Shown: positions 32,923 to 60,319 of the stretch, piece by piece | How the letters are laid out: each line of letters opens with the position of its first letter | Numbering within the stretch: position 1 is the first letter of the stretch | From: Rhizobium sp. WSM4643 | GTDB lineage: Bacteria > Pseudomonadota > Alphaproteobacteria > Rhizobiales > Rhizobiaceae | Direction: 5' to 3' | NCBI RefSeq assembly: GCF_025152745.1 | Contig: NZ_CP104042.1 | Span: forward strand, 310,001-374,000 | DNA: 64,000 nt | The notes under the pieces: generated by a model | What the model saw: the letters and a program-made list of their open reading frames with translations, nothing else | What the model was told of the DNA's origin: nothing | The model's database searches: none | Translations under genes and position numbers: made by a program

Positions 32923-33861
32923 CTAAACGGGTTCGGACTCCATCCCCACCCCGGCCAGGACCATCCTACCGGCCTCTTCGCCCAGCGCCGCCGGGGCTGT
33001 CCGAGCGCCACGCACGGCCACGCGCCGAGGGTTCCGCCCATCAGCATCGATGCTCAGACCGCGAAGCAGGATCTCGCTTCCATGACAGACGGCGAGCGCT
33101 CCGATCGGCATTCGGCACGAGCCGTTGAGGGTTCGAAGGAATGCACGCTCGCAGCGAACGGCATCGGCCGTGCCTGCATCGTTTAGAGCCGATACCAGTT
33201 CAGTTATTCGGTCATTCGCGACGACACTCTCGATGCAGATGGCTCCCTGCGCGGGTGAAGGTGGGAAATCGCGCGGGTTCAAAATCTCCGTCGCGGCGTC
33301 GGACATGCCCAGCCGGTTCAGTCCCGCCATCGCAAGCAGCGTCGCGTCAACAACGCCATTCTCGAGCTTCTGCAGCCGCGTACCGACGAATCCCCGAAAT
33401 GGAACGATATCTAGATCTGGCCGGTGCATTGCGACAAGCGCTGCGCGTCGGATCGACGACGTACCGACCACGGCGCCAGGCGGCAGCTCCCACAATCGAT
33501 ATCCGCTGCGTGAGATCAACACATCGCGCACGTCCTCCCTCGGCAGGAACGCGCTGAGGTGCAGCCCGTCCGGAAGGGTCGTGGCGACATCCTTGGCCGA
33601 ATGCACCGCAAGATCGAGGGCTCCTGAAAGGAGCCTTTCCTCCAGTTCAATTGTAAAAAGGCCCTTCACTCCGACCTCTGGCAACGGCCGTTCGTCAAGC
33701 CGATCGCCTCTGGTCGTCAGAGGCACGATCTCGAAGCAGTCGTCAGGAAGACCGTGGTAGGCCGCGAGCCGGCCGGCCACCTCCTTCGCCTGGGCAAGCG
33801 CAAGCGGGCTTGCTCGCGTACCGATCTTGATTTGGTTCTGTGCAACCCCTCCCAGCTTCAT
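32923..33861 (-). CDS. hemC: Porphobilinogen deaminase (hydroxymethylbilane synthase)
   Basis: HemC joins four porphobilinogen units into hydroxymethylbilane, an early step in heme synthesis. The product has 312 residues, a normal length. Catalytic Asp91 lies in HSAKDVATTLP, the polypyrrole-binding Arg residues in GTSSIRRAAL and FRGFVGTRL, and Cys249 in LNGSCRMPIGA anchors the dipyrromethane cofactor. Its ATG overlaps the stop of the ABC exporter by one base (TGATG), so both are one operon, probably under the FixK box at 35761. Rhizobia also have a chromosomal hemC, so this should be an extra, microaerobic copy. Confidence 0.93.
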   Translation of the reverse strand: MKLGGVAQNQIKIGTRASPLALAQAKEVAGRLAAYHGLPDDCFEIVPLTTRGDRLDERPLPEVGVKGLFTIELEERLLSGALDLAVHSAKDVATTLPDGLHLSAFLPREDVRDVLISRSGYRLWELPPGAVVGTSSIRRAALVAMHRPDLDIVPFRGFVGTRLQKLENGVVDATLLAMAGLNRLGMSDAATEILNPRDFPPSPAQGAICIESVVANDRITELVSALNDAGTADAVRCERAFLRTLNGSCRMPIGALAVCHGSEILLRGLSIDADGRNPRRVAVRGARTAPAALGEEAGRMVLAGVGMESEPV

Positions 33862-35723
33862 CAGGCGGCATCCTGTTCGGGCTGGGTGGCGACATTGAAC
33901 TGCAACTCCGCGAGTCTTGCGTAAAGTCCCCCCTGTCGAACTAGCGACGCATGCGTACCCTCCTCGACGATCCTGCCCTTGTCCATGACCAGGATGCGGT
34001 CGGCGTTGAGAACGGTGGCGAGCCGGTGCGCAATGACGATCGTCGTCCGACCGCTCATGAGTCCCTCCAATCCCCGTTGAACGAGCTGCTCGTTCTCGGC
34101 GTCCAACGAGGCGGTCGCTTCGTCGAGAAGGAGGATTGGAGCATCTTTGAGCAGCGCGCGTGCAATCGCTATCCTCTGGCGCTGTCCGCCGGAGAGCGTC
34201 AGACCGCGCTCGCCGACGACGGTTTCGTATGCGTCTGGAAGCGCGGCGACAAAGGCGTCCACCCGCGCCTTGGCGGCGGCCGCCGCTATTTCCGCCTCTG
34301 CGGCGTCAGGACGACCGAATGCGATGTTTTCAGCGATCGAGGCGGCAAAGATCGTCACGTCCTGCGGGACGACGGAAATCTCCTTCCGCAGTTCTTCAGG
34401 CGTGGTCGACCTGATATCCCGCCCGTCGATCGCGATGCTGCCCGAGTAGTCGTCATAGAAACCCAGCAACAAGGAGAGAACGGTACTCTTCCCCGATCCC
34501 GACGGGCCGACGATCGCGACCGTCTCGCCAGCCGCGACCCGCAGCGAGAGGCCTCTAAGCACTTCTCTTTCAGGCGAGCCAGGATAGGCGAAATGGAGAT
34601 CCGCGATCTGAACGTCGCCCCGTACTGGACCGATCGGTCTGAGGGAACCATGCTGACGGACGCTCTCTTGTTCGTCCAATAGCTCGAAAAGCCGTCCAGC
34701 CGCTCCGGCAGCCTGGGCCATTTCGCCCCAGACTTCGGAGAGCGACCCGAGCGAGCCCGCCGCGATCACGGCATAGATTAGAAACTGACTGAGATTACCG
34801 GCAGAAAGCGTTCCGCTAAGCAGGCTGTGCGCCCCAATCCATAGCACTCCGACGACGCTTCCGAATATTAGAGCGATTGCAACCGCCGTAAGGACTGCCC
34901 GCGAGCGCGAAGCGACGACTGCGCTTCGATAGGACTCCTCTATATCCTTTGAGTATCGGCGACAGGCGATCTCCTCGCCGTTGAATGCCTGGACGGTGCG
35001 GCTTCCGGCTATGATTTCGGCGGCGTAAGCGGATGCATTGGCCAGGGCGTCCTGAGCGGCCCTCGACCGCCGCCGAACCGAGCGCCCGAACACCACCAGC
35101 GGAACCACGACCAAGGGAATGGCGCCCATGGTGATCGCGGACAAAGCTGGGCTTGTCACGAACATCATGGCGAGAGCGCCGATGCAGAGGATGGAGTTTC
35201 TCAACGCGACGGATGCGGCGAGGCTAGTCGCCGTCTTGATCTGAGCAGCGTCCGCGGTCAGCCGCGAGGCGATCTCCCCCGACCGGTTTGCGTCGAAAAA
35301 GCTCGCGGGGAGACGGGTGATCTTCCTGAAGACCATTATCCGGAGATCGCCAACGATCCGTTCCCCGAGCGTGGTGACGAAGTAGTATCGGCAGGCGCTT
35401 GCCAACGCGAGTCCGATCGCAAGGATCATTAGCATCATGAAGTAGCGGTTGACGAACGCGCCATCGGCCTGGCTGAAGCCATTGTCTATCATCCTGCGCA
35501 CCGCCAACGGGAGCGCAAGCGAAATCAGCGCCGCGCAGGTCAGCGAAACACCCGCGCACATCACCAGCGGCCGATGATTGCGAAGCAGTGGTCGCAGGCG
35601 CATCAGGCTCCCAATTCTCCGCTTCGAGGCACCCCCTTCGCGCGAGTCGGCTGCGCGCTCTAACTGGCCCGCGGTACGGCAGTCGTGCTGTGCGATCATC
35701 AATGTCTCGGTCTCCGGCTTCAT
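33861..35723 (-). CDS. ABC exporter, fused membrane and ATPase domains (MsbA-like)
   Basis: A half-transporter of about 620 residues: six membrane helices (for example LVMCAGVSLTCAALISLALP), then an ATPase with Walker A GPSGSGKSTV, Q-loop VPQD, signature LSGGQRQRIAIARAL, Walker B ILLLDEATA and the His switch IVIAHRLATV. It is of the MsbA/lipid-exporter type, but the cargo cannot be read. The start was set at 35723; further Met codons (35699, 35813) are possible and the FixK box centre at 35767 favours 35723 or 35699. It is coupled to hemC and follows hemA, so a heme- or redox-related cargo is a fair guess. ccmA and ccmB are not in this window. Confidence 0.85.
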   Translation of the reverse strand: MKPETETLMIAQHDCRTAGQLERAADSREGGASKRRIGSLMRLRPLLRNHRPLVMCAGVSLTCAALISLALPLAVRRMIDNGFSQADGAFVNRYFMMLMILAIGLALASACRYYFVTTLGERIVGDLRIMVFRKITRLPASFFDANRSGEIASRLTADAAQIKTATSLAASVALRNSILCIGALAMMFVTSPALSAITMGAIPLVVVPLVVFGRSVRRRSRAAQDALANASAYAAEIIAGSRTVQAFNGEEIACRRYSKDIEESYRSAVVASRSRAVLTAVAIALIFGSVVGVLWIGAHSLLSGTLSAGNLSQFLIYAVIAAGSLGSLSEVWGEMAQAAGAAGRLFELLDEQESVRQHGSLRPIGPVRGDVQIADLHFAYPGSPEREVLRGLSLRVAAGETVAIVGPSGSGKSTVLSLLLGFYDDYSGSIAIDGRDIRSTTPEELRKEISVVPQDVTIFAASIAENIAFGRPDAAEAEIAAAAAKARVDAFVAALPDAYETVVGERGLTLSGGQRQRIAIARALLKDAPILLLDEATASLDAENEQLVQRGLEGLMSGRTTIVIAHRLATVLNADRILVMDKGRIVEEGTHASLVRQGGLYARLAELQFNVATQPEQDAA

Positions 35724-35760
35724 TCCATGGCAGTCTTCTTCTCGGAAGACGGCCCTGTCT

Positions 35761-35774
35761 TTGATCGGGATCAA
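35761..35774. promoter_or_regulatory. FixK/FNR box before the ABC exporter-hemC operon
   Basis: TTGATCGGGATCAA, a perfect TTGAT-N4-ATCAA site. It lies 38-51 bases before the Met at 35723; activation from -41.5 would start transcription near 35726. Confidence 0.85.
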
Positions 35775-35918
35775 TAATAATCGCGATCCCTGCTCGTCTT
35801 TCCGGAGGCGCAATCCCGCAGGCGAGACTGAGAAATAGAGAGGGCTGCACGACGTCTGAATTTAGCATGCAGACGATGGTTCATTCCGTCCTTAGAGAAC
35901 GGAAGACCCCGCAATGCA

Positions 35919-37133
35919 TCAGGCCACGTGCCTTGCGAGCGCGCAGCGCGACCAGAGCGAATGCAGCGCCTCGACCAGGTGGGCGATATCGGCGTCGGAA
36001 TGCAGCGGCGTCGGCGTGATGCGCAGGCGCTCGGTCTTCTTCGGCACGGTGGGATAGTTGATCGGCTGGACATAGACGCCGCAATTGTCGAGCAGCAGAT
36101 CGGAGATCCACTTGCACTTGGCCGCATCGCCGACCAGCACCGGCACGATATGGCTCGGATTGGGCATATGCGGAATGCCGCGCTGGTCGAGCAGCGCCCT
36201 CAGCTTGCGGACACGGTCCTGATGACGGGCGCGCTCGAACTGGCTGATCTTCAGGTGCTGGATCGAGGCGACGGCACCGGCGGCCAGCGCCGGCGGCAGC
36301 GCCGTGGTGAAGATGAAGCCCGACGCAAACGAGCGGATGAAATCGCAAAGGGCCGTCGACGCGGCGATATAGCCGCCCATCACCCCGAACGCCTTGCCGA
36401 GCGTGCCCTCGATCACGGTCAGCCGGTCCATCAGCCCTTCGCGCTCGGCAATGCCGCCGCCGCGCGGGCCGTACATGCCGACGCCATGCACTTCGTCGAG
36501 ATAGGTCATCGCCCCGTATTTGTCGGCGAGATCGCAGATTTCCTTGATCGGGGCGATATCACCATCCATCGAATAGACGCTCTCGAAGGCGATCAGCTTC
36601 GGCGCCTTCGGATCGGCGGCCTTGAGCTTGGCTTCGAGATCGGCCACGTCATTGTGCTTCCAGATCACCTTGTCGCACTTGGCATAGCGGATGCCCTCGA
36701 TCATCGAGGCATGATTCAGCGCATCGGAGAAGATGATCAGGCCGGGGATCTTGGCGCCGAGCGTGCCGAGCGCTGCCCAGTTGGACACATAGCCCGACGT
36801 GAAGATCAGCGCTGCTTCCTTGCCGTGCAGGTCGGCAAGCTCACGCTCGAGCATGACGTGATGGTGGTTGGTGCCAGAAATATTCCGGGTGCCTCCCGCA
36901 CCCGCGCCACAGTGGTCGATGGCGTTCTTCATCGCCTCGATCACCTTTGGATGCTGGCCCATGCCGAGATAGTCGTTGGAGCACCAGACCGTGACTTCCT
37001 TTTGGCCATCCGCGGTGTGACGCGTCGCGCGCGGAAAATTGCCGCGGTGACGTTCGAGATCGGCAAAAACGCGGTAACGGCCTTCGGTACGAAGTCCGTC
37101 CAACTCGTCTTTGAAAAACGCTTCGAAATCCAT
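35919..37133 (-). CDS. hemA: 5-aminolevulinate synthase
   Basis: HemA makes 5-aminolevulinate from glycine and succinyl-CoA using pyridoxal phosphate, the entry step of heme synthesis in alphaproteobacteria. The product has 404 residues. The ATG at 37133 follows GGGAGG at good distance; the in-frame TTG just before it is not needed. Key features are [43 protein letters not shown] and the PLP lysine in [13 protein letters not shown] FixK box lies about 55 bases upstream, so this copy should be induced at low oxygen. Confidence 0.96.
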
Positions 37134-37186
37134 CAAGATCCTCCCTGGTACGACCGCAGGGATATCTCGACTTATGCGGCCCGTAT

Positions 37187-37200
37187 TTGATCTCTGTCAA
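37187..37200. promoter_or_regulatory. FixK/FNR box before hemA
   Basis: TTGATCTCTGTCAA fits TTGAT-N4-GTCAA. Its centre is about 60 bases before the hemA ATG, placing the start of transcription near 37152. Confidence 0.8.
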
Positions 37201-37375
37201 GTAAAGCGCGGATGGCCGCGCGGTCGAGTGTGGCTGCTTCTCTCCCGCTATCACCGGGCAACCTGAAGACGCCGAACCAGGACCGACTGCCGGCACCAGG
37301 AGCCAGTTGAGTTCGCGTGAGGTCTTGAAGCAACGGCATGCATTCGACGCTGCAACGATGCTCGACGCTGGGTCT

Positions 37376-37389
37376 TTGATCCGGATCAA
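37376..37389. promoter_or_regulatory. FixK/FNR box before ccmC
   Basis: TTGATCCGGATCAA is a perfect site. Its centre is only about 42 bases before the ccmC ATG, so the mRNA may start at or next to the ATG, or translation may begin at the second ATG (37437). Confidence 0.83.
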
Positions 37390-37424
37390 TTATCTCGCGC
37401 GCAGCAACAGCTATTGCTCCGTGC

Positions 37425-38189
37425 ATGACCAAAGCAATGGACCTTCTGAACTATTTCGCCTCCCTCGCTCAGCCGTCGAAGTTCCTCAAGATGGCGGACC
37501 GCGTTCTTCCTCTGCTTGCAGGGGGCACCGCTCTGTCGTTCGCTGCGGGTCTTTGGCTGAGTTTCAGCTCGGACGTCGACTACCAGCAGGGCGTAACCGT
37601 CAGGATCATGTATGTCCACGTGCCGGCGGCCTGGATGGCCATGCTCTGCTATACGACGATGACCGCCAATGCCATCGGGTCGTTGGTCTGGCGGCATCCC
37701 TTGGCCGACGTCGCGGCCCGCGTCGCCGCTCCCCTTGGCGCCGCCTTCACCTTCGTGTCGCTCGTGACCGGCGCGATCTGGGGCAAGCCTATGTGGGGCA
37801 CGTGGTGGGTGTGGGACGCCCGCCTGACATCGATGTTCGTTCTTTTGATCATGTATCTCGGCATATTGGCGATCAATCGGGCGATCGACGATCCGACTCG
37901 CGCCGCCCGTGTCACGGCGGTCCTGATCGTCGTGGGTTTCGTCAATATCCCGATCATCAAGTTTTCCGTCGATTGGTGGAACACGCTGCATCAACCCGCC
38001 AGCGTGTTGCGGCTGGACGGCCCCGCGCTCGACATCGAGTTCCTACGCCCCCTGCTGGCCATGGGACTGGCGTTTTCGGCGCTGTTCGCCACGCTCTACG
38101 TCGCATCGATAAGAAACGAGATCTGGCGAAGGAAGCTCATCACGCAATACAGGCTCGCAGCAAAAGCCGCTGCTCACAGGGAGACTTGA
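37425..38189 (+). CDS. ccmC: Heme exporter / heme-handling protein CcmC
   Basis: CcmC loads heme onto CcmE in the periplasm for cytochrome c maturation. The product has 254 residues with six membrane helices. The tryptophan-rich heme motif WGTWWVWDARLTS is complete and the flanking His residues (YVHVPAAWMAM and WWNTLHQPASV) are present. A second ATG at 37437 is possible. It leads a compact ccmC-ccmD-ccmG operon with a FixK box immediately upstream. The ABC subunits CcmA and CcmB, which usually precede ccmC, are not in the window, so they must be supplied by the chromosome. Confidence 0.95.
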   Translation: MTKAMDLLNYFASLAQPSKFLKMADRVLPLLAGGTALSFAAGLWLSFSSDVDYQQGVTVRIMYVHVPAAWMAMLCYTTMTANAIGSLVWRHPLADVAARVAAPLGAAFTFVSLVTGAIWGKPMWGTWWVWDARLTSMFVLLIMYLGILAINRAIDDPTRAARVTAVLIVVGFVNIPIIKFSVDWWNTLHQPASVLRLDGPALDIEFLRPLLAMGLAFSALFATLYVASIRNEIWRRKLITQYRLAAKAAAHRET

Positions 38190-38190
38190 A

Positions 38191-38346
38191 ATGAACCACG
38201 AACACTATGTTCTTGCAGCATACTTGCTCACCTTCGCGGTCATGGTCACGGCGACGTTGAAGGTCTGGCTCTCAGGCCGACGCTACCGCCGTCAGATCGA
38301 GGCGCTTGCTGCCGCGCGACGTCGGCCAATTGGCGGAGATTGCTAG
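38191..38346 (+). CDS. ccmD: CcmD, small subunit of the heme export complex
   Basis: A 51-residue membrane protein starting right after ccmC (ATG at 38191) and ending with the TAG next to the ccmG ATG. One membrane helix (YVLAAYLLTFAVMVTATLKV) is followed by a basic tail (RRYRRQIEALAAARRR), the usual CcmD layout. It helps release holo-CcmE from the CcmABC complex. Confidence 0.88.
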   Translation: MNHEHYVLAAYLLTFAVMVTATLKVWLSGRRYRRQIEALAAARRRPIGGDC

Positions 38347-38907
38347 ATGCGTCGGTACGCCCTCGCCGCATTTCCGCTTGTCGCGTTTCTAGGAATTGCC
38401 GGTGCCGTTGCTAATACGCTGTATCGCAAATCCGCAGAAGGTTACGCTCATTCCGCGATTCCCTCGGCTCTCGTGGGACGTCGACATCCAGCCCTCGATC
38501 TTGCGCCACTTGCCGGTCTGGACGTGCCGGGCCTGTACGACCGCCCGCTCGATGGTCATATCACCGTCGTCAATATCTTCGCGTCCTGGTGCGTTCCTTG
38601 TCGGCTCGAACACCCGGCGCTGATGGAACTGGCCAAGAATCCGCGCATCAAGCTCGTAGGCGTCAACTACAAGGATGCGCCAGGAAAGGCCCTCGCCTTC
38701 CTCCGTGAAAATGGCAATCCGTTCGCCGCTGTCGGAATCGACACCACGGGAAGAAGCTCGATCGACTGGGGAGTCTACGGCGTCCCGGAAACATTCGTTA
38801 TCGATCGTGCGGGACGAATCGTCTTGAGACATGTCGGACCGATCGACGAGAAAGGCCTAACGATGGATATTCTGCCCGCTTTGGAAGAGATCATCGCCGC
38901 CGAATGA
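38347..38907 (+). CDS. ccmG: Thiol:disulfide oxidoreductase CcmG (DsbE)
   Basis: CcmG keeps apocytochrome c cysteines reduced so that heme can attach. The product has 186 residues: an N-terminal membrane anchor (AAFPLVAFLGIAGAVA) and a periplasmic thioredoxin fold with the redox pair in FASWCVPCRLEHPAL, the cis-Pro in YGVPETFVID and the family-specific KLVGVNYKD strand. The start follows directly on the ccmD stop. Last gene of the ccmCDG operon. Confidence 0.95.
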   Translation: MRRYALAAFPLVAFLGIAGAVANTLYRKSAEGYAHSAIPSALVGRRHPALDLAPLAGLDVPGLYDRPLDGHITVVNIFASWCVPCRLEHPALMELAKNPRIKLVGVNYKDAPGKALAFLRENGNPFAAVGIDTTGRSSIDWGVYGVPETFVIDRAGRIVLRHVGPIDEKGLTMDILPALEEIIAAE

Positions 38908-39221
38908 GCGCTGCCTCATTCAGCCGTGTTTGACCTCCATCAAAGAAGCGGCCTCGCCTATTGAGTATCTCGGTTTGGCGGGTCGGGATTTTCCCGTGTC
39001 AAGGGGGGAAACTTGACAGAGGCTCGCTGGGTGTCGCGGCGCGATGCCGAGCGAGCCTCCTCGCGTCAAGTGCACCTGTCCCCTCAAGTCGCCTGTTTAG
39101 CGATGTGCAGATCGCCTGCATTGGTGCTGGGCACGGCGCAGAGTGCGAGCTTGCGATCATATCCGCACGTTGGCTACGGAGGAGTCGCCGACGACAAGCG
39201 CGCCAGCAATGAGTCGCCGTC
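38908..39221. other. Convergent gap with an orphan FixK box and an inverted repeat
   Basis: About 310 bases between ccmG (+) and the CBS gene (-). TTGACCTCCATCAA at 38930-38943 fits a FixK/FNR site, and TGTCAAG-N8-CTTGACA lies at 38997-39018. An ORF from about 39013 (86 codons, TTG start) has no family features. A low-oxygen transcript, perhaps an RNA, may start near 38978. Confidence 0.45.
38930..38943. promoter_or_regulatory. Orphan FixK/FNR-type box
   Basis: TTGACCTCCATCAA (TTGAC-N4-ATCAA) downstream of ccmG with no annotated gene properly placed after it on either strand. Confidence 0.55.
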
Positions 39222-39890
39222 TCAGTCCATCTCGGTGCCAGTCAGCCGGGTGATCTGCAGCCGGTCACGATAGGCGCCGAGACCCAGGCTCTCGACCAGG
39301 GTGCGAACAGCCTTTTGCTTCAGTTCCGACTCCACGTTGCCATCGAGCGTCACTTGGCCGTTCTTGACCGTTACCTGGACCTTCTGGGGCGTTATCCCCA
39401 AGTCTGACCTCAGGCGCGTCCGGACAGCCAGCCTGATCGATTCATCTCCTTTTGGCAGCGGCGCCGTCTGGGCGTCGATGATCAGGCCGAGGATGTCCCG
39501 GCGGCTGACGATCCCGACAAGGCGCCCATTTTCGATGATAGGCAGCCGCTTGATGCGGTGCGCCTGGAGGCTTTCGGCGATATCCGATACCTCGCTGTCC
39601 GGGCGCGCTACGATCACGTCTTGGGACATGACATCTGCGACACACCAGCCATTGCTGGAAATATATCGCTCAAGATCGATCTCGGATGCGCGGATCGAAC
39701 GGGACGGGAACCGAATCTCTTTCCGCATCAGCAGATCGCCTTCCGTGATCATTCCGCAGACGCGGCCTCCGTTGTCGACGACGGGAAGGCCGCTGACCTT
39801 GTTTTGCATCATGACAGCGACGGCGTGGCGTATACCGACCGCTGGACCGATCGACACCACATGAGTGGTCATTATGTCCTTCGCCTGCAT
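39222..39890 (-). CDS. CBS-domain protein with C-terminal BON domain
   Basis: The start was moved to 39890 (MQAKDIMTTHVV) because the FixK box overlaps the longer ORF's beginning. Two CBS motifs (AVMMQNKVSGLPVVDNGGRV, LQAHRIKRLPIIENGRLVG) form an adenine-nucleotide-binding pair and a BON domain (RTRLRSDLGITPQKVQVTVK, GQVTLDGNVESELKQKAV) follows. Such proteins are common in low-oxygen regulons, but the partner is not known. A ligand-sensing role in energy metabolism is inference. Confidence 0.87.
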   Translation of the reverse strand: MQAKDIMTTHVVSIGPAVGIRHAVAVMMQNKVSGLPVVDNGGRVCGMITEGDLLMRKEIRFPSRSIRASEIDLERYISSNGWCVADVMSQDVIVARPDSEVSDIAESLQAHRIKRLPIIENGRLVGIVSRRDILGLIIDAQTAPLPKGDESIRLAVRTRLRSDLGITPQKVQVTVKNGQVTLDGNVESELKQKAVRTLVESLGLGAYRDRLQITRLTGTEMD

Positions 39891-39954
39891 TGTCCTGCCT
39901 CGTCTATAGGAATTGTTGCTGCGACGACGATAGGACGACCGCGTCGAGCCGCCA

Positions 39955-39968
39955 TTGATCTCCGTCAA
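39955..39968. promoter_or_regulatory. FixK/FNR box before the CBS-BON gene
   Basis: TTGATCTCCGTCAA; read on the - strand it is TTGAC-GGAG-ATCAA. The centre is about 72 bases before the ATG at 39890. The site overlaps the end of ccmH. Confidence 0.8.
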
Positions 39969-40432
39969 ATAGTGCGATCTCTGTGAAGCATCTCGCTCAG
40001 CTTCGCTTGTTCATCGGCCGTCAGCTTGCTGCCGGTCGGCTTGCCGGCCCTGTTGCGGGCAAAGACCAACAGTGACAGCCCGCCGGCAAGCACCAGCAGC
40101 AGCGGTGCGCCCCAGAGCAGCCCCGTCTTCATGCTGACACGCGGCTTCAAAAGCACGAACTCGCCGTAGCGCGAGACGATGTAGTTCAGCACCGCCTCAT
40201 CGCTGTCGCCATCGGTGATGCGCTCGCGCACCAGCAGGCGCAGGTCCTTGGCGAGATCGGCATTGGAATCGTCGATCGACTGGTTCTGGCAGACCATGCA
40301 GCGCAGTTCCGCCGAAAGCGCGCGGGCGCGGGCCTCGAGCGCCGGATCGGCCAGCACCTCGTCGGGATTGACGGCAAAGGCGGGGACGGGCATCAGGAGC
40401 AAAGCGACAGCCAGGAGCAGACGCCGCATCAT
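39965..40432 (-). CDS. ccmH: Cytochrome c maturation protein CcmH (CycL)
   Basis: CcmH reduces apocytochrome c cysteines and works with CcmF and CcmI in heme ligation. About 155 residues: signal peptide ([18 protein letters not shown]), redox motif [19 protein letters not shown], then a C-terminal membrane helix ([20 protein letters not shown]). The start (40432, or 40429) overlaps the stop of ccmF, as usual in the ccmIEFH operon. The redox pair is intact. Confidence 0.94.
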
Positions 40433-50358: not shown

Positions 50359-50444
50359 TCAAAGGGAAGGGTCGAGGATGAAGCTCCAGCCGTTTCTCAT
50401 TCTTCGGGCGCCCAACCGACGAGGATCGGCACGGCGGGAAAATT

Positions 50445-50473: not shown

Positions 50474-50523
50474 CTACGAGGAACCGCGGGGAGAGACCGC
50501 TAGGACGTCCTCGTAATAGAGTT

Positions 50524-50709: not shown

Positions 50710-50719
50710 GCTGTTCTCC

Positions 50720-51583: not shown

Positions 51584-51584
51584 C

Positions 51585-51737
51585 TCAATCATCCTTCAAG
51601 GGAATATCGGCGGCCTCTTTCGCCGTTTGCTTGCTGCCTGGGCGAAGGGCGAACACGACCGCGCCGACGAAGAATGCCGTCATAGCCACAAGGCCCCAAC
51701 TGTCGGCGAAGTGTCTCATTGCAGTATAGGTTTCCAT
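51585..51737 (-). CDS. fixQ: cbb3 oxidase small subunit FixQ (CcoQ)
   Basis: A 50-residue membrane protein: METYTAMRHFADSWGLV then the helix AMTAFFVGAVVFAL and RPGSKQTAKEAADIPLKDD. The ATG at 51737 follows GAGGTGATCC. The stop overlaps the fixP start region. CcoQ stabilises the complex in the presence of oxygen. Confidence 0.93.
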   Translation of the reverse strand: METYTAMRHFADSWGLVAMTAFFVGAVVFALRPGSKQTAKEAADIPLKDD

Positions 51738-51745
51738 GGATCACC

Positions 51746-52480
51746 TCATCGGTAGCCGGTCGCGTCGTCGTAGGTCGAGAAATCGACCAACGTTCCGAGC
51801 ATCTGCAGGTAGGACACCAGGGCATCCATTTCGGTCAGCGCAGCCGGATCGCCGTCGAAATCGCCGGTCTTCGCCTTCGGATAGCGGGCAAGCAGGGCCG
51901 TCGTATCTGCGTTCGGATCGGCTTGGGCCTTCATGTCGGCCTCCGCGTTCGCCAGCATGTCATCGTTATAGGGCACGCCCACGTCCTCGTTGGCCTTCAG
52001 GTCCATTCCCACGTCCTTGACCGTCACCCTCTGCTCTTTGAGGAAGGCGTAACTCGGCATGATCGACTCCGGCACGACCGCCCGTGGATCCGCGAGATGC
52101 TGGACATGCCATTCGTTGGAGTAACGTGCCCCGACACGGGCCAGATCCGGCCCGGTTCGCTTGGATCCCCATTGGAAAGGATGATCGTACATGGACTCGG
52201 CCGCGAGCGAGTAATGGCCGTAGCGTTCGACCTCGTCGCGGAAGGGCCTGATCATCTGGCTGTGGCAGAGGTAGCAGCCTTCGCGGATGTAGATGTTCCG
52301 GCCGGCCAATTCGAGCGGCGTATACGGCCGCATGCCTTCCACCTTTTCAATCGTATTCTGCAGGTAGAACAGCGGTGCGATTTCGACGATGCCGCCTATG
52401 CTCACGACGAGCAGCGAGCCGACGAGAAGAAGCGTCGCGTTCTTCTCGAGGATCTGATGTTTATCTAGTATCGATGCCAT
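51746..52480 (-). CDS. fixO: cbb3 oxidase monoheme cytochrome c subunit FixO (CcoO)
   Basis: A 244-residue membrane-anchored cytochrome c. One N-terminal helix ([20 protein letters not shown]) is followed by the heme site [18 protein letters not shown] and the Met ligand region near [12 protein letters not shown] central electron-transfer subunit between FixP and FixN. Eight bases separate it from fixQ and from fixN. Confidence 0.96.
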
Positions 52481-52488
52481 GTCTCACC

Positions 52489-54111
52489 TCATTCGGCAGG
52501 CTGTGGTTGGGGCACGAAAGTGGTTGGGATTGCAGCTTCGTCGCGCAGGTAGCCGCGGATCGTCATGAACACGTTCCAGGCCATGACGAGACCGCCCGCC
52601 AGGTAAAGCGTTCCGCCGACCGCGCGCAGCACGTAGTAGGGGAACATCGCCGCGACTGTCTCCGCGAAGGAATAGACGAGGAAGCCCTGAGAATTGTACT
52701 CGCGCCACATCAGCCCCTGCTGGATGCCGGCAACCCAAAGCACGGCGGCGTAGACGACGATCCCGAGGGTCGCGAGCCAGAAGTGCCAGTTGACCATCCG
52801 CAGGCTGTAGAGACGCTCGCGTCCCCATAGCTTCGGCGTCAGGTAGTAGATCGCCCCGAAGGTGATCATTCCCACCCAGCCGAGAGCGCCGGAATGCACG
52901 TGGCCGATCGTCCATTCGGTATAGTGGCTGAGCGAATTGACGGTTTTCACCGACATCATCGGGCCTTCGAAGGTCGACATCCCGTAAAAGGCGATGGCGA
53001 CGATCATCATACGGATGATCGGATCGGTGCGGATCTTGTCCCAGGCGCCTGAAAGGGTCATGAGACCGTTGATCATGCCGCCCCAGGAGGGCATCCAGAG
53101 CATGATCGAGAAAACCATGCCGAGCGTCTGGGCCCAGTCGGGCAGCGCCGTGTAATGCAGATGATGCGGGCCGGCCCAGATGTACATGAAGATCAGCGCC
53201 CAGAAGTGGATGATCGAGAGCCGGTATGAATAGACGGGTCGGTTGGCCTGCTTCGGCACGAAGTAGTACATCATGCCCAGGAAGCCGGCGGTGAGGAAGA
53301 AGCCGACGGCGTTGTGGCCGTACCACCATTGGGTCAGCGCGTCCTGAACGCCCGAGAAGACAGAATAGCTCTTCGATCCCAGGAACGAGGTGGGAACCGC
53401 CAGGTTGTTGACCACGTGCAGCATCGCGATGGTGACGATGAAGCCCAAATAGAACCAGTTCGCCACATAGATATGCGGCTCTTTGCGCCTCAGGATCGTG
53501 CCGAGATAGACGGCGAGATAGGCGACCCAGACGATGGTGAGCCAGAGGTCGACGTACCACTCAGGTTCGGCATATTCACGGGCCTGGGTGATTCCGAGAA
53601 CGTATCCGGTCGCAGCCATCACGATAAAAAGCTGGTAACCCCAGAATACGAACCAAGCCAGGCTACCGCCGAAAAGACGTGCGCGACAGGTGCGTTGCAC
53701 CACGTAGAACGATGTCATGATCAGCGCATTGCCGCCAAAGGCGAAGATGACCGCCGAGGTGTGAACGGGCCGCAACCTTCCGAAATTGAGATAAGGGGCG
53801 ATGTTGAGGTCAGGAAAGGCAAGCTGCAGCGCGATGATCACGCCAACCAGGAAGCCGACTACGCCCCAGAACACCGTGGCGATCAAGCCATATCGTATCA
53901 CCTCGTCGAAATAGGCGGACGGATCGACTTTCTGCTGCCGGGCTGCCGGCGAGAAATCAACTCTCCTGATCAGCAGCGCAGCGCCCGCGGCAAGGCAGAA
54001 GCAAAGTATGCCCATATGGACTGCAAAGAGGTGGTCGTGTGCGAATGCGGCTCCCAGCAGAGCCAGGAACGCCGCGACCGTGATCGCCACCGTTTCCGTC
54101 GTGTAGTTCAT
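52489..54111 (-). CDS. fixN: cbb3 oxidase catalytic subunit FixN (CcoN)
   Basis: Heme-copper oxidase core with about twelve membrane helices, 540 residues. Heme and CuB ligands are in [28 protein letters not shown] (His of the Cu site), [15 protein letters not shown] (His-His pair) and [14 protein letters not shown]. High affinity for oxygen lets bacteroids respire in the nodule. The operon is fixN-O-Q-P plus a small ORF; a FixK box lies 87 bases upstream, in the shared region with fixK. Confidence 0.97.
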
Positions 54112-54197
54112 GATGTCGTCCCCAGTGCACAGCGACCGCGCCGCGGCCGGCTTTCTCGTACCTGAGGCAGGACTGTCACGGAGCCAGAGCGGGCTCC

Positions 54198-54211
54198 TTG
54201 ATCTACATCAA
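54198..54211. promoter_or_regulatory. FixK/FNR box before fixNOQP
   Basis: TTGATCTACATCAA, centred about 93 bases before the fixN ATG, giving a start of transcription near 54163. It might also let FixK act on its own divergent promoter. Confidence 0.88.
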
Positions 54212-54246
54212 CGAAACAGTCGCTTTTCTCCCTATGCGCCCGGCTT

Positions 54247-54262
54247 GTTACAAACTGTTACA
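54247..54262. promoter_or_regulatory. K-box (FxkR-type site) before fixK
   Basis: GTTACA-AACT-GTTACA is a perfect tandem repeat, the motif known as the K-box in R. etli and S. medicae fixK promoters, where FxkR binds. It lies 87 bases before the fixK ATG. Confidence 0.8.
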
Positions 54263-54348: not shown

Positions 54349-55077
54349 ATGCTGATGCAGGGCAACGCCGCATTTCAGAAGACCGAAGCCGCAAGCGGTA
54401 GCCGGAGCGTTCAGACGCTCTCGTCACTGTTCCACATGTCTGCGAGCGAGACCGTGGGCGCGGGTAAGGCGATCTGCTGGGAGGGCGACGCCGTCAAGCA
54501 TCTCTTCCAGGTCGTGGAGGGCGTCGTGCGTCTCCATCGCATCATCGGCGAAGGCCGCCGCGTCATCACCGGCTTCCATTTCCCCGGTGACGTCGTCGGA
54601 ACGTTTCTAGAGGGCGACTTTCTGTTCACGGCCGAAGCCGTGACCGACTGCAAGATCCGGCGGATGCCGCGCAAGCACTTTCGCGATGGGGTCGCCCGGT
54701 CGGATGCCCTTCACACTGCATACATCTCCCTTCTCTGCCGTGAGACGGCTGCCGCTCACGACCAGATGGTGCTGCTGTCAAAGAAGAACGCAGAAGAACG
54801 TCTGTGCAGCTTCATCGTAAAGCTCGCAGCTCGGCCTGATTCCCGGTCGCAGCCGAATCTGCTACGCGTGCCGATGAACCGTCAGGACATCGCCGACTAT
54901 CTTGGCCTGACGATCGAGACCGTCTCGCGCACGATCAGCAAGCTGGCGTCCAGAAACATCGTCGTCCCCGAGGGCAGGCACGATCTTAGAATCGTGGACC
55001 CGGTACGACTGGCGCAATTGTCCGGAAACGCTGATGATTTCTCCGCGAAAACCTGCCATAGGGTCAATTTCCACTGA
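54349..55077 (+). CDS. fixK: Crp/Fnr-family regulator FixK
   Basis: A 242-residue activator of the low-oxygen respiration genes. The sensory domain (GKAICWEGDAVKHLFQVVEG, VITGFHFPGDVVGTFLEG) lacks the N-terminal cysteine cluster of FNR, so it does not sense oxygen itself and depends on its transcription. The recognition helix YLGLTIETVSRTISKL has Glu..Ser-Arg, matching the TTGAY sites found across the island. It diverges from fixN and is followed after 24 bases by the hybrid FixL gene, so fixK and fixL form one unit. Confidence 0.93.
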   Translation: MLMQGNAAFQKTEAASGSRSVQTLSSLFHMSASETVGAGKAICWEGDAVKHLFQVVEGVVRLHRIIGEGRRVITGFHFPGDVVGTFLEGDFLFTAEAVTDCKIRRMPRKHFRDGVARSDALHTAYISLLCRETAAAHDQMVLLSKKNAEERLCSFIVKLAARPDSRSQPNLLRVPMNRQDIADYLGLTIETVSRTISKLASRNIVVPEGRHDLRIVDPVRLAQLSGNADDFSAKTCHRVNFH

Positions 55078-55101: not shown

Positions 55102-57027
55102 ATGCCTCATCGCCTCATATCGCCGCGCACCGCGTCGTCGCAGGAACTTGACGCTCTGGTGCACGTGCTCGATGGAGCAGACATCATCATCCATCGGCTG
55201 GAAGGAACCATCACGCACTGGTCGATCGGATGCGAAAACATGTACGGATGGAGCCGTGAGGAGGCTGTGGGAGAAAACGTCTACGAACTGTTGGCAACCC
55301 GGTTCCCGGAGCCTGCGGAGAGCATCCACGAGCAGTTGAAGTCCCGTGGTTTCTGGCAGGGAGAGATCATCCATCGCCACAAGAACGGCCAGGACATTCA
55401 CGTCGCGAGCCGGTGCGTCCTGGTCAACCTTCCAGACGGCGATCCCGCGGTCATTCAGTCGAACAGCGACGTCAGCGCCCTCCGGAAGGCCGAGCAGGAA
55501 GTGAGATCGCGCGAGGCGCACCTTAGGTCGATTCTGGATACGGTGCCCGACGCGATGGTCGTCATCGATCAGAAGGGCATCGTGATATCCTTCAGCAAAG
55601 CCGCCGAAAGCTTGTTCGGCATGACTTCCGAGGAAATCTGCGGCCGGAACGTCAGCAACCTGATGCCCAATCCCTATCGCGATGCGCACGACGGCTACAT
55701 CGGGAGATATCTCGGCACCGGCGAGAAGCGGATCATCGGCTACGGTCGCGTGGTGACCGGCCAGCGTGCGGACGGCTCACAGTTCCCCATGGAGCTGCAC
55801 GTCGGAGAGGCCACGGTCGATGGGGCGCGGATTTTTACGGGATTCGTACGAGACCTCACGAGCAGGGTTAAGATCGAGGAAGATCTGCGCCAGGCACAGA
55901 AGATGGAAGCGGTAGGGCAGTTGACAGGAGGCCTCGCGCACGACTTCAACAATCTCCTTACCGTCATCAGCGGCAACCTCGAAATGATCGAGGATAAGCT
56001 TCCGGCGGGACCTCTTCGCGATATGCTCCGGGAAGCGCAGGATGCTGCTGGAGATGGCGCAAAGCTGACGGGCCAACTGCTTGCCTTCGGCCGACGCCAA
56101 CCGCTCAGCCCTAAGCAGGTTGATCTGGGGCAACTCGTCATGGGATTCTCAGACCTGCTCCGCAGGATGCTGGGAGAGGACATCAAGCTTTCGACCGTGG
56201 TTTCCGGGTCGGGCTTCAACGTGCTGGTAGACAGCTCGCAGCTTCAGAACGCAATTCTCAACATCGCCCTCAACGCCCGCGATGCCATGCCGAAGGGCGG
56301 CAGCCTGACCACCGAGGTGTCGCGCGTCCATCTGGATGCCGACTATGCCAAGATGTATCCAGAGGTCCGCAGCGGGCACTTCGCGCTCATATCGATGACC
56401 GATACCGGCAGCGGCATGAGCGACGAGGTCAAGAAGCGGGCGATAGAACCGTTCTTCACCACCAAGGAAGTGGGCTCAGGAACTGGTCTCGGTCTGAGCA
56501 TGGTGTACGGCTTTGTCAAACAGTCCGGCGGCCATCTTCAAATCTATAGCGAGGTCGGAAGAGGCACGACAATCCGCATTTACCTGCCCGCCCCTGATGC
56601 CGGCGGAGCAGACGCCTTTGTGGAACAAGCGGGAAAAACGGAATCACCACTTCCCAAGGGAACCGAACTTGTTCTCGTCGTCGAAGATGACGCGCGAGTG
56701 CGTCGCGTTGCGGTAGCTCGGCTCGTCGCCATGGGCTATTCAGTGCTGGAAGCTGAGAACGGTCAACGCGCGCTGGAGGTTCTCGAGGAAAACGGGAACA
56801 TCGCCCTCCTGTTCACCGACATCGTGATGCCGGGAGGCCTTACTGGAGACGAAGTCGCAGGCGCAGCGCGCAAGCTTCGTCCCGAACTTGCGGTACTCTT
56901 CACATCCGGATATTCGGAGCCTTCTCTCGCGACGCATGAGGTGATCGCCGGAGCGCAGTGGCTGCGAAAGCCGTACACCGCCAGAGAACTCGCAACGAAG
57001 ATCCGAGAACTGCTAGACGAGCGATGA
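55102..57027 (+). CDS. fixL: Hybrid oxygen-sensing histidine kinase FixL (hFixL)
   Basis: A 641-residue soluble protein with no membrane helix. PAS 1 lies at about residues 15-125 and PAS 2 at 135-255; the latter is the heme PAS, with His196 in YRDAHDGYIGRYL as heme ligand and Arg216 in IIGYGRVVTG, exactly 20 residues later as in Bradyrhizobium FixL. The kinase has phospho-His280 (GGLAHDFNNLL), the N box and GTGLGLSMVYG. A C-terminal receiver has Asp573 in LLFTDIVMPGG. Such hybrids replace the FixL-FixJ pair in R. etli; no fixJ is present here. Fits the FxkR route to fixK. Confidence 0.94.
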   Translation: MPHRLISPRTASSQELDALVHVLDGADIIIHRLEGTITHWSIGCENMYGWSREEAVGENVYELLATRFPEPAESIHEQLKSRGFWQGEIIHRHKNGQDIHVASRCVLVNLPDGDPAVIQSNSDVSALRKAEQEVRSREAHLRSILDTVPDAMVVIDQKGIVISFSKAAESLFGMTSEEICGRNVSNLMPNPYRDAHDGYIGRYLGTGEKRIIGYGRVVTGQRADGSQFPMELHVGEATVDGARIFTGFVRDLTSRVKIEEDLRQAQKMEAVGQLTGGLAHDFNNLLTVISGNLEMIEDKLPAGPLRDMLREAQDAAGDGAKLTGQLLAFGRRQPLSPKQVDLGQLVMGFSDLLRRMLGEDIKLSTVVSGSGFNVLVDSSQLQNAILNIALNARDAMPKGGSLTTEVSRVHLDADYAKMYPEVRSGHFALISMTDTGSGMSDEVKKRAIEPFFTTKEVGSGTGLGLSMVYGFVKQSGGHLQIYSEVGRGTTIRIYLPAPDAGGADAFVEQAGKTESPLPKGTELVLVVEDDARVRRVAVARLVAMGYSVLEAENGQRALEVLEENGNIALLFTDIVMPGGLTGDEVAGAARKLRPELAVLFTSGYSEPSLATHEVIAGAQWLRKPYTARELATKIRELLDER

Positions 57028-57627
57028 GCCGGCCGGAACGTTTGCGTCACCGCGGATCGTGACGACCTCGGGATCCGATTGTGTTGTGACTTGCCTGGCA
57101 AGGTTTCGACGATTCAGTTTGCAACAGTTCAGCTAGACCGAGGTCCCCGCGTCTATCGGCGGATCGCCGGGCCGAAACGCCAGAACTTCAATCGTATTAT
57201 GATCCTGACCCTTCGGGAGAACACGCCGCTCGGTCGCTGTCGCGAGCGATAGAAGCCTCGCTAGATCCCGCTGGCCTCTCGGCTCATTCCTTGCGCCGCG
57301 ACGGGCCGTAGCGAAGGGCCAAAGTCTACGAGACACGTGCTTCGCACACAAATAGACGACCGCCATGCAGCGTGGCACCATTCAGATAGCAGTCAATGAT
57401 TTCCCAGTTCTATCGCGCCGTCCTGCGCGTCGGTGACGTACTTCCTGCAGACGGGTGCCGGCGGCTTCCGCGGAGATTCAAGATCGCGACGTGCAAACGA
57501 CGGATACGAGGTGCTGAAGCCGGATTTGATCTACCAAATTTGACCAGCGTCAAAGAGGGCCGCTTTCGGATGGCATAGAAAGGCTCCCGAGGCCGACCAT
57601 CGGTCCCGTTTCAAATGGAGATAATCA
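57028..57627. other. Gap between fixL and pseudoazurin
   Basis: About 600 bases without a supported gene. Weak ORFs on both strands have no features. The FixK box of the pseudoazurin gene is near its right end. Confidence 0.4.
57540..57553. promoter_or_regulatory. FixK/FNR-type box before pseudoazurin
   Basis: TTGACCAGCGTCAA, symmetric TTGAC-N4-GTCAA, centred about 81 bases before the azu ATG. The TTGAC form also suits Dnr/NnrR-type regulators. Confidence 0.72.
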
Positions 57628-58071
57628 ATGCGCTTCAATATTGTCCCGGCCGCGGTGGCTGCGGTTCTCGTTGCGTCTGCCGCGCCGTCGATGGCCGCCG
57701 ATCATCAGATTCAGTTGCTCAACAAGGGCGCCGACGGCGTCATGGTCTTCGAGCCTGGCTTCGTCAAGATCGCTCCCGGCGACACAGTCACCTTCGTGCC
57801 GACCGACAAGAGCCACAACGTCGAAACCTACAAGGGTCTCATTCCGGACGGCGCGGCGCAATTCAAGTCGAAGCCGAACGAGGAGTTCCAGACCAAGTTC
57901 GACGTGCCAGGCGCCTACGTCGTCAAATGCACTCCACATGCCGGCATGGGCATGGTCGCACTGATCCAGGTCGGCGACGCGCCGGCAAACCTCGACGCCA
58001 TCAAGACCGCGAAGGTGCCGAACCCGGTGCGCAAGCGCCTCGACGCGGACCTCGCCCAGGTCACCCCGTAA
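57628..58071 (+). CDS. Pseudoazurin (blue copper protein)
   Basis: A 147-residue periplasmic copper electron carrier. Signal peptide: [17 protein letters not shown], cut near residue 23. The type-1 copper ligands are His in [10 protein letters not shown] and Cys, His, Met in [12 protein letters not shown]. Pseudoazurins give electrons to nitrite or nitrous oxide reductases and sometimes to oxidases. No such denitrification gene is in the window besides nap, so its partner might be the cbb3 oxidase; that is inference. Followed by two copper-handling genes. Confidence 0.93.
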
Positions 58072-58126: not shown

Positions 58127-58654
58127 ATGATCAAGCAAGTCACCGCCGCCCTGTTCGCTGCCCTCTGCGCCGCCGGAGCGGCGCATGGACATGCCACGCT
58201 TGAACAAGCGCAGGCGGCGCCCGGCAAGGCCTACAAGGCGGTCGTCCGGATCGGTCACGGCTGCGAAGGAAAGCCGACCATCAAAGTCCGCGTGAAGGTT
58301 CCAGAAGGACTCATTTCCGCCAAGCCGATGCCAAAGCCGGGCTGGACCGTCGACAAGATCAAGGGCGCCTACGAAAAAAGCTACAATCTCTATGGCTCGG
58401 CAGTGAAAGAGGGAACGACGGAAATCGTCTGGAGCGGAGGCAATCTCGCCGACGACGAGTACGACGAGTTCGTGTTCCGTGGAACGGTCGCCAAGGAAAC
58501 GCCGTCCGGGACCCGCATATACGTTCCGATCGTGCAGGAGTGCACCGACGGAGCTTTCGAACGGTGGATCGAAATTCCCACGGTGGGGAAGTCATCCGAC
58601 GACTATGAAAATCCGGCGCCGTTCTTCGACGTCGTAGAACAACCTCGTTCTTGA
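58127..58654 (+). CDS. YcnI-like copper-binding protein (DUF1775)
   Basis: A 175-residue exported protein. After the signal peptide (TAALFAALCAAGAAHG) the mature chain starts with His-Ala-Thr-Leu-Glu (HATLEQAQ), the copper site of YcnI in which the first His binds Cu(II). The domain shows YKAVVRIGHGCEGKPTIKVR and EYDEFVFRGTV. It lacks the C-terminal membrane helix of Bacillus YcnI. The pair ycnI-copCD is a known arrangement and follows pseudoazurin here. Confidence 0.87.
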   Translation: MIKQVTAALFAALCAAGAAHGHATLEQAQAAPGKAYKAVVRIGHGCEGKPTIKVRVKVPEGLISAKPMPKPGWTVDKIKGAYEKSYNLYGSAVKEGTTEIVWSGGNLADDEYDEFVFRGTVAKETPSGTRIYVPIVQECTDGAFERWIEIPTVGKSSDDYENPAPFFDVVEQPRS

Positions 58655-58669
58655 GAAGGACCACCGCCC

Positions 58670-60319
58670 ATGTGGCTGATCATCTCCACATGGGCGGCCG
58701 CCAACCGGCGGGCAGCCTTGCTTCTCCTGCTCGTCTTGGCGGCGCTCGGGTTCCTTTCGCCAGTGGGCGCGCAAGCTCACGCCGTGTTGAGAAGTTCCTC
58801 CCCCGCGAGCAACGAAACTCTGGATCGGCCGCTCAGCCGCGTCGAGCTTCGCTTTAACGAAGCAGTCAGGCTTGTCACCGCGAGCGCTACCGATTCCACC
58901 GGCGCCCGGACAGTCGTGCAGGGGAATACTCTCGGCTCCGTTGTCATATTGAACCTCCCAAGTTCGATCGCTCGTGGCACTATCATCGTAAGCTATCGGG
59001 TGGCATCGGAGGACGGGCATCCGGTGGGCGGCTCCGTCGTCTTCCACGTCGGCACGCAGACGGCAGCGATCAGCGATACCCCGCAAGGATTCGTCTCGCC
59101 CCTGATGATCGCAATCTGGCTCGTGCAAGCCGGCTCGATCGTCCTCCTTGCGGTCGTCGTCGGGGGTGCATTCTTCGCCCATCTGTTTGATGCTGGAACG
59201 CCCCTTTCCTCGCGACAAGATCTCACCGCGTCCCTCGCCGTCCTGCTGCTTACCGCGAACGTCTACCTGCAAGGGCTCGACGAGATTGGCGGCGAACTGA
59301 GGCTCGCTGGCATGCGGCCGTTTCTCGCCGCAGCTCAGAACGGCTCGGCGATCGCCGCATCTCTTGCACTGTTCTCCATCGTGCTCGTTTCAATACCGAT
59401 CAACGGCCACAGGGCTTCCTTGGCGGCCGCGGTACTCGCGATGATCGCCGCCTCCGTCTCCTTCACGTTCACCGGCCACTGCAACGTGGCGGAGCCTCGC
59501 TGGCTCGCCAGGACGTGCATGTTCCTACACGGTGGGGTGATGATCTTCTGGATCGGAAGCCTGATCCCGCTGTGGCGAATTGGCGAAAAGCAAGCGCGCT
59601 CGGGTCCCCTGCTCGGTTTCTCGCGGGTGATACCCTTGCCGTTCGTCGGGATGTTGCTGGCGGGCGGCGCGCTCGCCTGGATAGAATTGCCCGCCCTCAA
59701 TACCATTTTGCTATCGATCTTTGGGCGGGTGCTGCTTCTCAAAATCCTACTCGTCTCGTTGCTCTGCTTGCTCGCAGTCTACAACCGATTCTGGCTCACG
59801 CAGCCTGCGCTAGCCGGAAGCCCGACCGCCAGATGGCGCCTGCGACGCAGCATCGCCGCCGAGATAGTCCTGGCCGTGGCCATCGTTGCCTCTGCGTCGC
59901 TTTGGCGCTTCGCAGGCCCCGATCAACTTGAGTTCGTGACAGCGGCGCCGATGCTTTCCATTCACCTGCATTCCGAGACGGCAATGGCGCAGCTCGAGCT
60001 TCAGCTCCAGCGCGACGGCACCTCCACGGCTCGAGTGAGCGTCATGACGCTCGACTTCGAGCCACTCGAACCGCGCACTGTCGTGCTTCGCATGAGAAAG
60101 CCGAATGCCGGTGTTGAGCCCATAAAATACGATCTGTTGAAATCACCGGACGGCGCCTGGGAGACCAGCGGCCTACCCATAAGCAATCCGACCGGCTGGG
60201 AGGCCGATGTGCAGATCCTGATCGATGATTTCACAACGGCTCATCTCGAAGGCGACCTGGCTCCATCGAGCGACGCCGCCGCCACCTCGGTTACGAAAAG
60301 GTCCGGTGCCGGTTCCTGA
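58670..60319 (+). CDS. CopC-CopD fusion protein (copper import/resistance)
   Basis: A 549-residue fusion. After a signal-like helix (ALLLLLVLAALGFLSPVGAQ) the CopC domain starts with AHAVLRSSSPASNETL and contains the late Cu-binding DGHPVGGSVVFHV. CopD follows with eight membrane helices (IWLVQAGSIVLLAVVVGGAF, and others), and a soluble C-terminal domain (AAPMLSIHLHSETAMAQLEL) completes it. CopCD brings copper to the cytoplasm or handles it in the periplasm. The ATG at 58670 starts 15 bases after ycnI. It may supply copper for pseudoazurin and for the oxidase. Confidence 0.9.
   Translation: MWLIISTWAAANRRAALLLLLVLAALGFLSPVGAQAHAVLRSSSPASNETLDRPLSRVELRFNEAVRLVTASATDSTGARTVVQGNTLGSVVILNLPSSIARGTIIVSYRVASEDGHPVGGSVVFHVGTQTAAISDTPQGFVSPLMIAIWLVQAGSIVLLAVVVGGAFFAHLFDAGTPLSSRQDLTASLAVLLLTANVYLQGLDEIGGELRLAGMRPFLAAAQNGSAIAASLALFSIVLVSIPINGHRASLAAAVLAMIAASVSFTFTGHCNVAEPRWLARTCMFLHGGVMIFWIGSLIPLWRIGEKQARSGPLLGFSRVIPLPFVGMLLAGGALAWIELPALNTILLSIFGRVLLLKILLVSLLCLLAVYNRFWLTQPALAGSPTARWRLRRSIAAEIVLAVAIVASASLWRFAGPDQLEFVTAAPMLSIHLHSETAMAQLELQLQRDGTSTARVSVMTLDFEPLEPRTVVLRMRKPNAGVEPIKYDLLKSPDGAWETSGLPISNPTGWEADVQILIDDFTTAHLEGDLAPSSDAAATSVTKRSGAGS

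Follow-up and report, generated by a model that had tools for sequence, protein, structure and literature searches.

The stretch of DNA analysed here (the window) comprises 64,000 nucleotides of Rhizobium sp. WSM4643, namely positions 310001-374000 of the 549-kb contig C3 in a 6.4-Mb genome of four contigs (G000), and it carries, at window positions 32923-60319, an island of hem, ccm and fix genes for respiration at low oxygen. We consider it very probable that this is a low-oxygen island of the type found on Rhizobium etli plasmid p42f, that it is controlled by a FixL-FxkR-FixK cascade, and that its hemA and ccmIEFH genes have been homogenised by recurrent gene conversion that usually spared their FixK-type boxes. 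That is, the coding sequence of hemA and much of that of ccmIEFH would be kept near the housekeeping copies by repeated conversion, apparently mostly from the housekeeping loci into the island, with the island promoters and their FixK boxes usually left in place. The gene content, the boxes, a K-box before fixK, a second island, sharp mosaic blocks, gene copies that group by genome and boxes that group by locus can all be read from the sequence.

The second island lies on contig C1 (C1:3227944-3250999), and its gene order is that of the window. That island is in decay: it lacks ccmC, ccmD and the 5' portion of ccmG (gap at about C1:3232182-3232323), and its hemC (C1:3227983-3228908) matches in two frames. 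The same contig holds the housekeeping hemA (C1:4141705-4142919) and ccmIEFH (about C1:1140406-1144391), upstream of which an exact FixK-type box was not found. The genome has three near-identical hemA genes, that of the window included (100, 100 and 99% identity at the amino acid level). The two islands are about 50-90% identical in their fix region, and a tract of about 2.3 kb from ccmF to ccmE reaches 99-100%. Synonymous divergence (dS) between them is low for ccmF (0.002), ccmE (0.041), hemC (0.059), hemA (0.123) and the ABC exporter gene (0.157), intermediate for the CBS gene (0.33), ccmH (0.35) and ccmI (1.02), and high for fixP/O/N (0.83-0.97), fixH (1.1), fixI (1.6), fixK (1.7) and fixG (1.8), as well as for the regulators fxkR (1.9), crp (2.0) and hfixL (2.3). 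Between the window and the housekeeping copies, dS is 0.132 for hemA, 0.125 for ccmF, 0.21 for ccmE, 0.43 for ccmH and 0.67 for ccmI.

Informative sites in the ccm genes fall into blocks. The C1 island equals the housekeeping copy at about 43421-42806 and 40452-40052, and the window equals the C1 island over 42777-40471 (~100% identity). The longest runs of such sites were 53 (window and C1 island alike) and 48 (C1 island and housekeeping copy alike), and none of 5000 permutations gave runs as long, the longest being 14. Within ccmI, the 3' part is near the housekeeping copy, but the 5' part (above about 43400) is not. At window positions 43400-43250, the C1 island is 98.9% identical to its own housekeeping copy, 85-94% to the housekeeping copies of other species and 75% to the window. 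As the C1 island is of housekeeping type there, conversion most likely ran from the housekeeping locus into the island in this tract.

For hemA, 100 genomes (numbered with G) were searched, 95 of which match, and 16 hold at least two near-full-length close copies. The pair analysis left out genomes with fragmentary copies (G052, G075 and G098) or with a second copy no more than 80% identical (G008, G016, G024, G029, G030, G036, G054, G066, G072 and G079). The R_leg_23b4 fragment was set aside from the identity, box and tree analyses and G030_C76 from the identity analysis; G049_C1, whose start was misplaced by a partial match, was left out of the tree. A family-wide search with HemA matched in 87 of 121 genomes. 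In 13 of the 16 genomes, the hemA copies resemble each other more than they do any other of the 43 rows compared. The tree (43 rows; outgroup, the second copy of G030) requires 16 switches between island and non-island copies, 14 of which supported branches make unavoidable; 12 genomes hold together, and G053 does not resolve. For ccmF, copies are nearest within the genome in six of the nine genomes with at least two copies, the tree has eight changes, and the two copies in G091 are identical over 2040 bases.

The promoters behave differently from the coding sequences. An exact box occurs within 300 bp of hemA in 18/18 island copies versus 0/26 others, and it starts 61-69 bp before the aligned start in 17 of the 18; a one-mismatch site beyond -230 is seen in two non-island copies (G016_C1 and G060_C1). 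Similarly, a box precedes ccmI in all 10 island copies with enough upstream sequence and in none of 13 others (two of which had only 1.5 kb upstream). In the 100 bp upstream of hemA, mean identity is 75% among housekeeping copies versus 41% when an island copy is compared with the housekeeping copy of its own genome; apart from the box and where it sits, island promoters have little in common. The 300-bp flanks of the hemA pairs align at 40-55%, the exceptions being the upstream flank in G053 (61%) and the downstream flank of the two islands in G000 (82%). In G053, the 100 bp upstream of the island hemA is of housekeeping type (85%), and the box starts at -144. A housekeeping promoter with the box still beyond it shows the housekeeping-to-island direction in this genome. 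Island promoters probably survive because they lack homology to those of the housekeeping genes and because loss of the box would carry a cost.

The circuit that would read these boxes is also encoded in the island. An exact K-box (GTTACA-N4-GTTACA; motif from PMC7888657) is present at 54247-54262 (+) before fixK, and the genome contains two K-boxes, each before the fixK of an island. In R. leguminosarum, FxkR activated by hFixL binds the K-box motif and FixK binds anaeroboxes, according to the part of PMC7888657 on this pathway. The window's fixK (54349-55077, +) was recognised by profile matches, and an FNR-type N-terminal cysteine cluster was not seen in the sequence of its product. It is followed by a hybrid fixL (55102-57027, +) in which a domain search found PAS, HisKA, HATPase_c and a C-terminal receiver (Response_reg). 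An OmpR-type response regulator (44168-44929, -; PF00072 and PF00486) is 59% identical to an R. brockwellii regulator that lies beside a second fixK-like gene and is taken for FxkR by position; the window gene is probably FxkR. By analogy with characterised strains, low oxygen would activate hybrid FixL, which would act through FxkR at the K-box to turn on fixK. FixK, probably together with FnrN, would then switch on the box-bearing operons, which encode the cbb3 oxidase, its assembly proteins, a copper electron carrier and the second hemA and ccmIEFH. Both the phosphorelay steps and the control by FixK would be as in those strains. The original prediction had placed the island under one switch, a view that needs refining, since FixK itself is probably under hFixL-FxkR through the K-box. 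That fixK is driven mainly via the box at 54198 was ruled out, as this box is 144.5 bp away and the K-box is nearer. A further Crp/Fnr-family regulator (45066-45725, -; family match), between fxkR and fixS, is kept in the islands seen.

A number of observations count against this picture. Three genes of the window are not homogenised with their housekeeping paralogues (dS of 1.38 for hemC, 1.43 for ccmC and 2.5 for ccmG); perhaps these island genes stay apart as they are too diverged to recombine. Homogenisation of ccmH and ccmI is only partial, as the dS values between the two islands indicate. Within-genome nearness is not seen for hemA in G028, G049 and G068, nor for ccmF in these three genomes. 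Some hemA margins are narrow (96.8-96.9 vs 96.5% for the window and 97.3 vs 97.1% for G053), and the G056 pair is weakly supported (86/74). The rejection of a single island clade by the approximately unbiased (AU) test (p-AU 1e-92 for hemA and 7e-76 for ccmF) speaks for the picture; the test, however, presumes groups defined a priori, and for some copies the island label was assigned in knowledge of plasmid location and boxes. Gene neighbours examined afterwards agreed with the labels, island neighbours being found at 17/17 island hemA copies in the G genomes and 0/16 partner copies. The island hemA promoters of different genomes are only 48% alike beyond the box, so that their common descent is argued mainly by box position and neighbours. 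Finally, the FxkR assignment depends on the 59% identity given above.

Islands might instead have repeatedly taken up fresh duplicates of the housekeeping hemA and ccm genes, without conversion of a resident copy. Although fresh duplicates would likewise group by genome, their insertion would carry flanks along or land in a new place, whereas the island neighbours and, in 17 of 18 island hemA copies, the box at -61 to -69 have been kept, and the blocks begin and end within genes; G053, with housekeeping sequence in front of the island hemA and the box beyond it, also bears on this possibility, which we consider improbable. Purifying selection on conserved enzymes, with no exchange between loci, would account for HemA and CcmF copies that are 97-100% identical as proteins, but not for synonymous sites that are also alike (dS 0.002-0.13 for hemA and ccmF), for the nearness of copies within genomes (13/16 for hemA and 6/9 for ccmF) or for a similarity that stops inside ccmI, and it is very improbable. 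Assembly errors between repeats could be suspected where two replicons share 2.3 kb at about 100%, a situation in which assemblers can fail, but they are just as improbable given an assembly of four contigs with 99.4% completeness and the same pattern in independent genomes, several of which have few contigs. As the molecular cause, we propose gene conversion, which in most genomes would have run from the housekeeping locus into the island, possibly under selection for equal proteins.

The homogenisation of hemA and ccm with the housekeeping genes looks new. Our literature search, which covered few subscription papers, found no report of gene conversion of hemA or ccm in Rhizobium. A survey of prokaryotes (PMC6053082) lists 26 genes with lasting concerted evolution, and its main text mentions neither hemA nor ccm nor Rhizobium. 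As in the cases described there (tuf, amo/hao), paralogues of one species resemble each other more than they do their orthologues, synonymous sites included. In contrast to those cases, the copies studied here lie on different replicons, and an oxygen-responsive box marks one locus only.

All eight boxes listed in the original prediction (at 35761, 37187, 37376, 39955, 44142, 50297, 54198 and 57540) are exact TTGAY-N4-RTCAA sites, and a ninth exact box, at 38930-38943, had been overlooked. Their number far exceeds chance. There are nine exact boxes in the window, all nine of them within 32923-60319, as compared with means of 0.19 and 0.05 (maximum 2) in 300 dinucleotide-preserving shuffles each of the window and the island; genome-wide, there are 51, versus four for the pattern read backwards. 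The distances had been called workable and proved so, eight of the nine box centres being 42-94 bp upstream of a gene start; the box at 38930 faces no gene start. The others precede the ABC exporter-hemC operon (35761-35774; 44.5 bp to the ATG at 35723), hemA (37187-37200; conserved across islands), ccmC (37376-37389), the CBS gene (39955-39968), ccmIEFH (44142-44155), fixGHIS (50297-50310), fixNOQP (54198-54211) and the blue-copper gene (57540-57553). The box at 54198 is 93.5 bp from fixNOQP and 144.5 bp from fixK and is the better fit to fixNOQP. The sequence thus supports the view that, in a microaerobic cluster, copies of hem and ccm genes are preceded by FixK-type boxes. More such boxes occur further along C3, up to 413976.

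Domain and profile matches confirmed the gene content as first read. On the minus strand are hemC for hydroxymethylbilane synthase (32923-33861; TIGR00212 above cut-off), an MsbA-type ABC exporter half-transporter between hemC and hemA (33861-35723; TIGR02204 above cut-off; start at ATG 35723 assumed) and hemA for 5-aminolevulinate synthase (35919-37133; TIGR01821). The plus strand carries ccmC (37425-38189), ccmD (38191-38346) and ccmG (38347-38907), with TIGR01191 and TIGR00385 matches and ccmD read from the sequence. These are followed on the minus strand by a CBS-BON domain protein gene (39222-39890; PF00571 and PF04972), ccmH (39965-40432; a NrfF/CcmH-type match below the model's cut-off, and its position after ccmF), ccmF (40429-42426; TIGR00353), ccmE (42423-42935; NF009731) and ccmI (42932-44086; TIGR03142). 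Beyond the two regulators and on the same strand lie fixS (45759-45917), fixI (45914-48196), fixH (48193-48678; assigned by position with no NCBIfam match) and fixG (48675-50243), and the cbb3 oxidase genes fixP (50720-51592), fixQ (51585-51737; read from the sequence), fixO (51746-52480) and fixN (52489-54111), with matches to TIGR00782, TIGR00781 and TIGR00780. Downstream of fixK and fixL, on the plus strand, are genes for a pseudoazurin-like blue-copper protein (57628-58071), a DUF1775 protein (58127-58654) and a CopC-CopD protein (58670-60319), identified by PF00127, PF07987, PF04234 and PF05425. A partial NapA-like nitrate reductase gene at the window end (62620-63996) was named by eye from its translation.

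The description of the island as a complete, self-contained unit did not hold, as ccmA and ccmB are absent and most heme genes are missing. The housekeeping CcmB gave zero matches in the window, and the housekeeping CcmA matched only the ATPase of the ABC exporter there (28%); hemA and hemC are the only heme-synthesis genes among the 20 island open reading frames scanned. Elsewhere on C1, ccmA, ccmB, ccmC, ccmD and ccmG are found together. Judged by its genes, the island seems to hold an entire sensor-to-output cascade, but neither a full heme pathway nor a full Ccm system. Parts of it recur on the same contig. The blue-copper gene with its box (57540-58071) is found again at C3:391924-392452 (91% identity), and a third fixNOQP set at C3:266808-270587 is close to window 50437-54222 (fixNOP dS of 0.12-0.24), with adjoining fixG, fixH and fixI that are diverged from those of the window (dS 1.3-1.6).

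The plain island is already known, and FixK control of hemA, hemC and ccmIEFH is already published as a prediction. The section of PMC4999443 on these regulons gives hemA, hemC, hemN, cco and ccmIEFH as predicted FnrN/FixK targets in Rhizobiales; the targets are the same as here, and that section is silent on duplicated copies or homogenisation. The plasmid hem and ccm copies under FixK had been thought unusual, which these published targets contradict, as does the presence of the same cluster on R. etli p42f and R. brockwellii pRltCC275eF. Altogether, 106 plasmid records match some part of 32900-45000. In R. etli CFN42, p42f shares hemA, CBS, ccmE, ccmI, Crp, fixSIHG, fixPQO, fixK, fixL, pseudoazurin, DUF1775 and CopC genes with the window in conserved order, and the part of PMC4125696 on this plasmid places fixK and fixL beside the cluster and fxkR on the same plasmid. 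Unlike the window, p42f (L114, L190) lacks hemC-ABC and ccmC/ccmG beside hemA, its ccmF matches are in separate pieces with other genes between them, and it differs from the present genome, in which there is a second island on C1. The R. brockwellii plasmid (L113) shares hemA, ccmG, CBS, ccmHFEI, Crp, fixSIHG, fixPQON, fixK, hybrid kinase and pseudoazurin genes with the window and has an identical K-box, but it lacks hemC-ABC, and its FxkR-like gene is found on the far side of hemN, next to a second gene resembling fixK. An island remnant consisting of hemC, the ABC exporter gene, partial hemA and ccmH is present on R. leguminosarum pRL23b4 (L112, 20024-24935); this plasmid is classed as conjugative, and the annotation of the region inspected includes no fix genes.

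The ninth box, at 38930, is flanked by ccmG and the 3' end of the CBS gene, and 47 nucleotides from its first base begins an element (38977-39068, +) that we regard as a candidate FixK-controlled structured RNA with a predicted four-way junction. It is present in 18 loci, each adjoining a CBS gene. By DNA similarity, it is found in seven of 100 genomes of the genus; with stricter filters, it is present in seven of 61 relatives, all seven within the genus, which accounts for 37 of the 61. A model built from 12 sequences (R1) matched 17 distinct forward-strand loci, six of them new to the model, and it gave no match in 17 housekeeping loci or in the island stretches examined of G053, G060, G066 and G091. 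A box-like site lies 46-47 nucleotides before the element in 15 of the 18 loci (exact in nine, with one mismatch in three and at chance level by itself in three), and FixK acting there would be expected to start transcription at about the position where the element begins. Small open reading frames around the box at 38930 include none that is evidently a gene.

Across 11 distinct sequences, 96.5% of the cells in a 32-pair four-way junction are paired, versus 37-44% with the partners slid, and none of 500 shuffles reaches either the covariation score or the number of cells in which both sides have changed. Single-sequence folds gave the junction in three of the four sequences tried (z of -5.2, -4.5, -1.3 and -3.5). 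Other results speak against an RNA. Only five pairs show two-sided change, a number matched by 54 of 500 shuffles, and further pair types were matched by 477 of 500; the p42f sequence has no four-way junction at minimum energy, and that of G068 is no more stable than shuffles (z -1.3). In a scan of 30000-61000, no Rfam family reaches its cut-off at the element; a match to a microRNA family over 39011-39071, which scored 29 bits where the cut-off is 79, was taken as chance.

The element might also be a DNA palindrome, a terminator or a mobile repeat between convergent genes and not a FixK-controlled RNA. This is consistent with where it sits in the window, ccmG being on one side and the 3' end of the CBS gene on the other, with the fact that palindromic DNA likewise keeps its pairs, and with weaker matches on the opposite strand (11/30). 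However, the element persists where ccmG is absent, for example on p42f, the box-like site stands ahead of it in most loci, no T run follows the hairpin on either strand, and there are few copies per genome. We consider this alternative a serious one, somewhat short of an even chance, and that the element is an RNA a little better than even. FnrS of enterobacteria is a small RNA controlled by FNR. The element would likewise be a small RNA behind an FNR/FixK site, the likeness being one of position with no claim of sequence relation. The box-linked structured element looks new, though it may already figure in the tables of noncoding RNAs of PMC2881028 and PMC4167512. The chances are evenly balanced that both things are true, i.e., that the islands encode a FixK-activated four-way-junction RNA of about 90 nucleotides and keep HemA and Ccm proteins equal by promoter-sparing conversion between loci and replicons.

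The 16 genomes of one genus form a natural series in which enzymes are mostly kept alike by recombination while their switches stay apart. As the series includes three genomes in which homogenisation failed and one (G053) in which the promoter was overrun, it offers a way to test if selection favours conversion or merely tolerates it, or if homology sets the limit. If the element is indeed an RNA, it would be an added regulator in the oxygen circuit of legume symbionts; and if the RNA and promoter-sparing conversion are both real, evolution would be free to alter the switch but not the enzyme.

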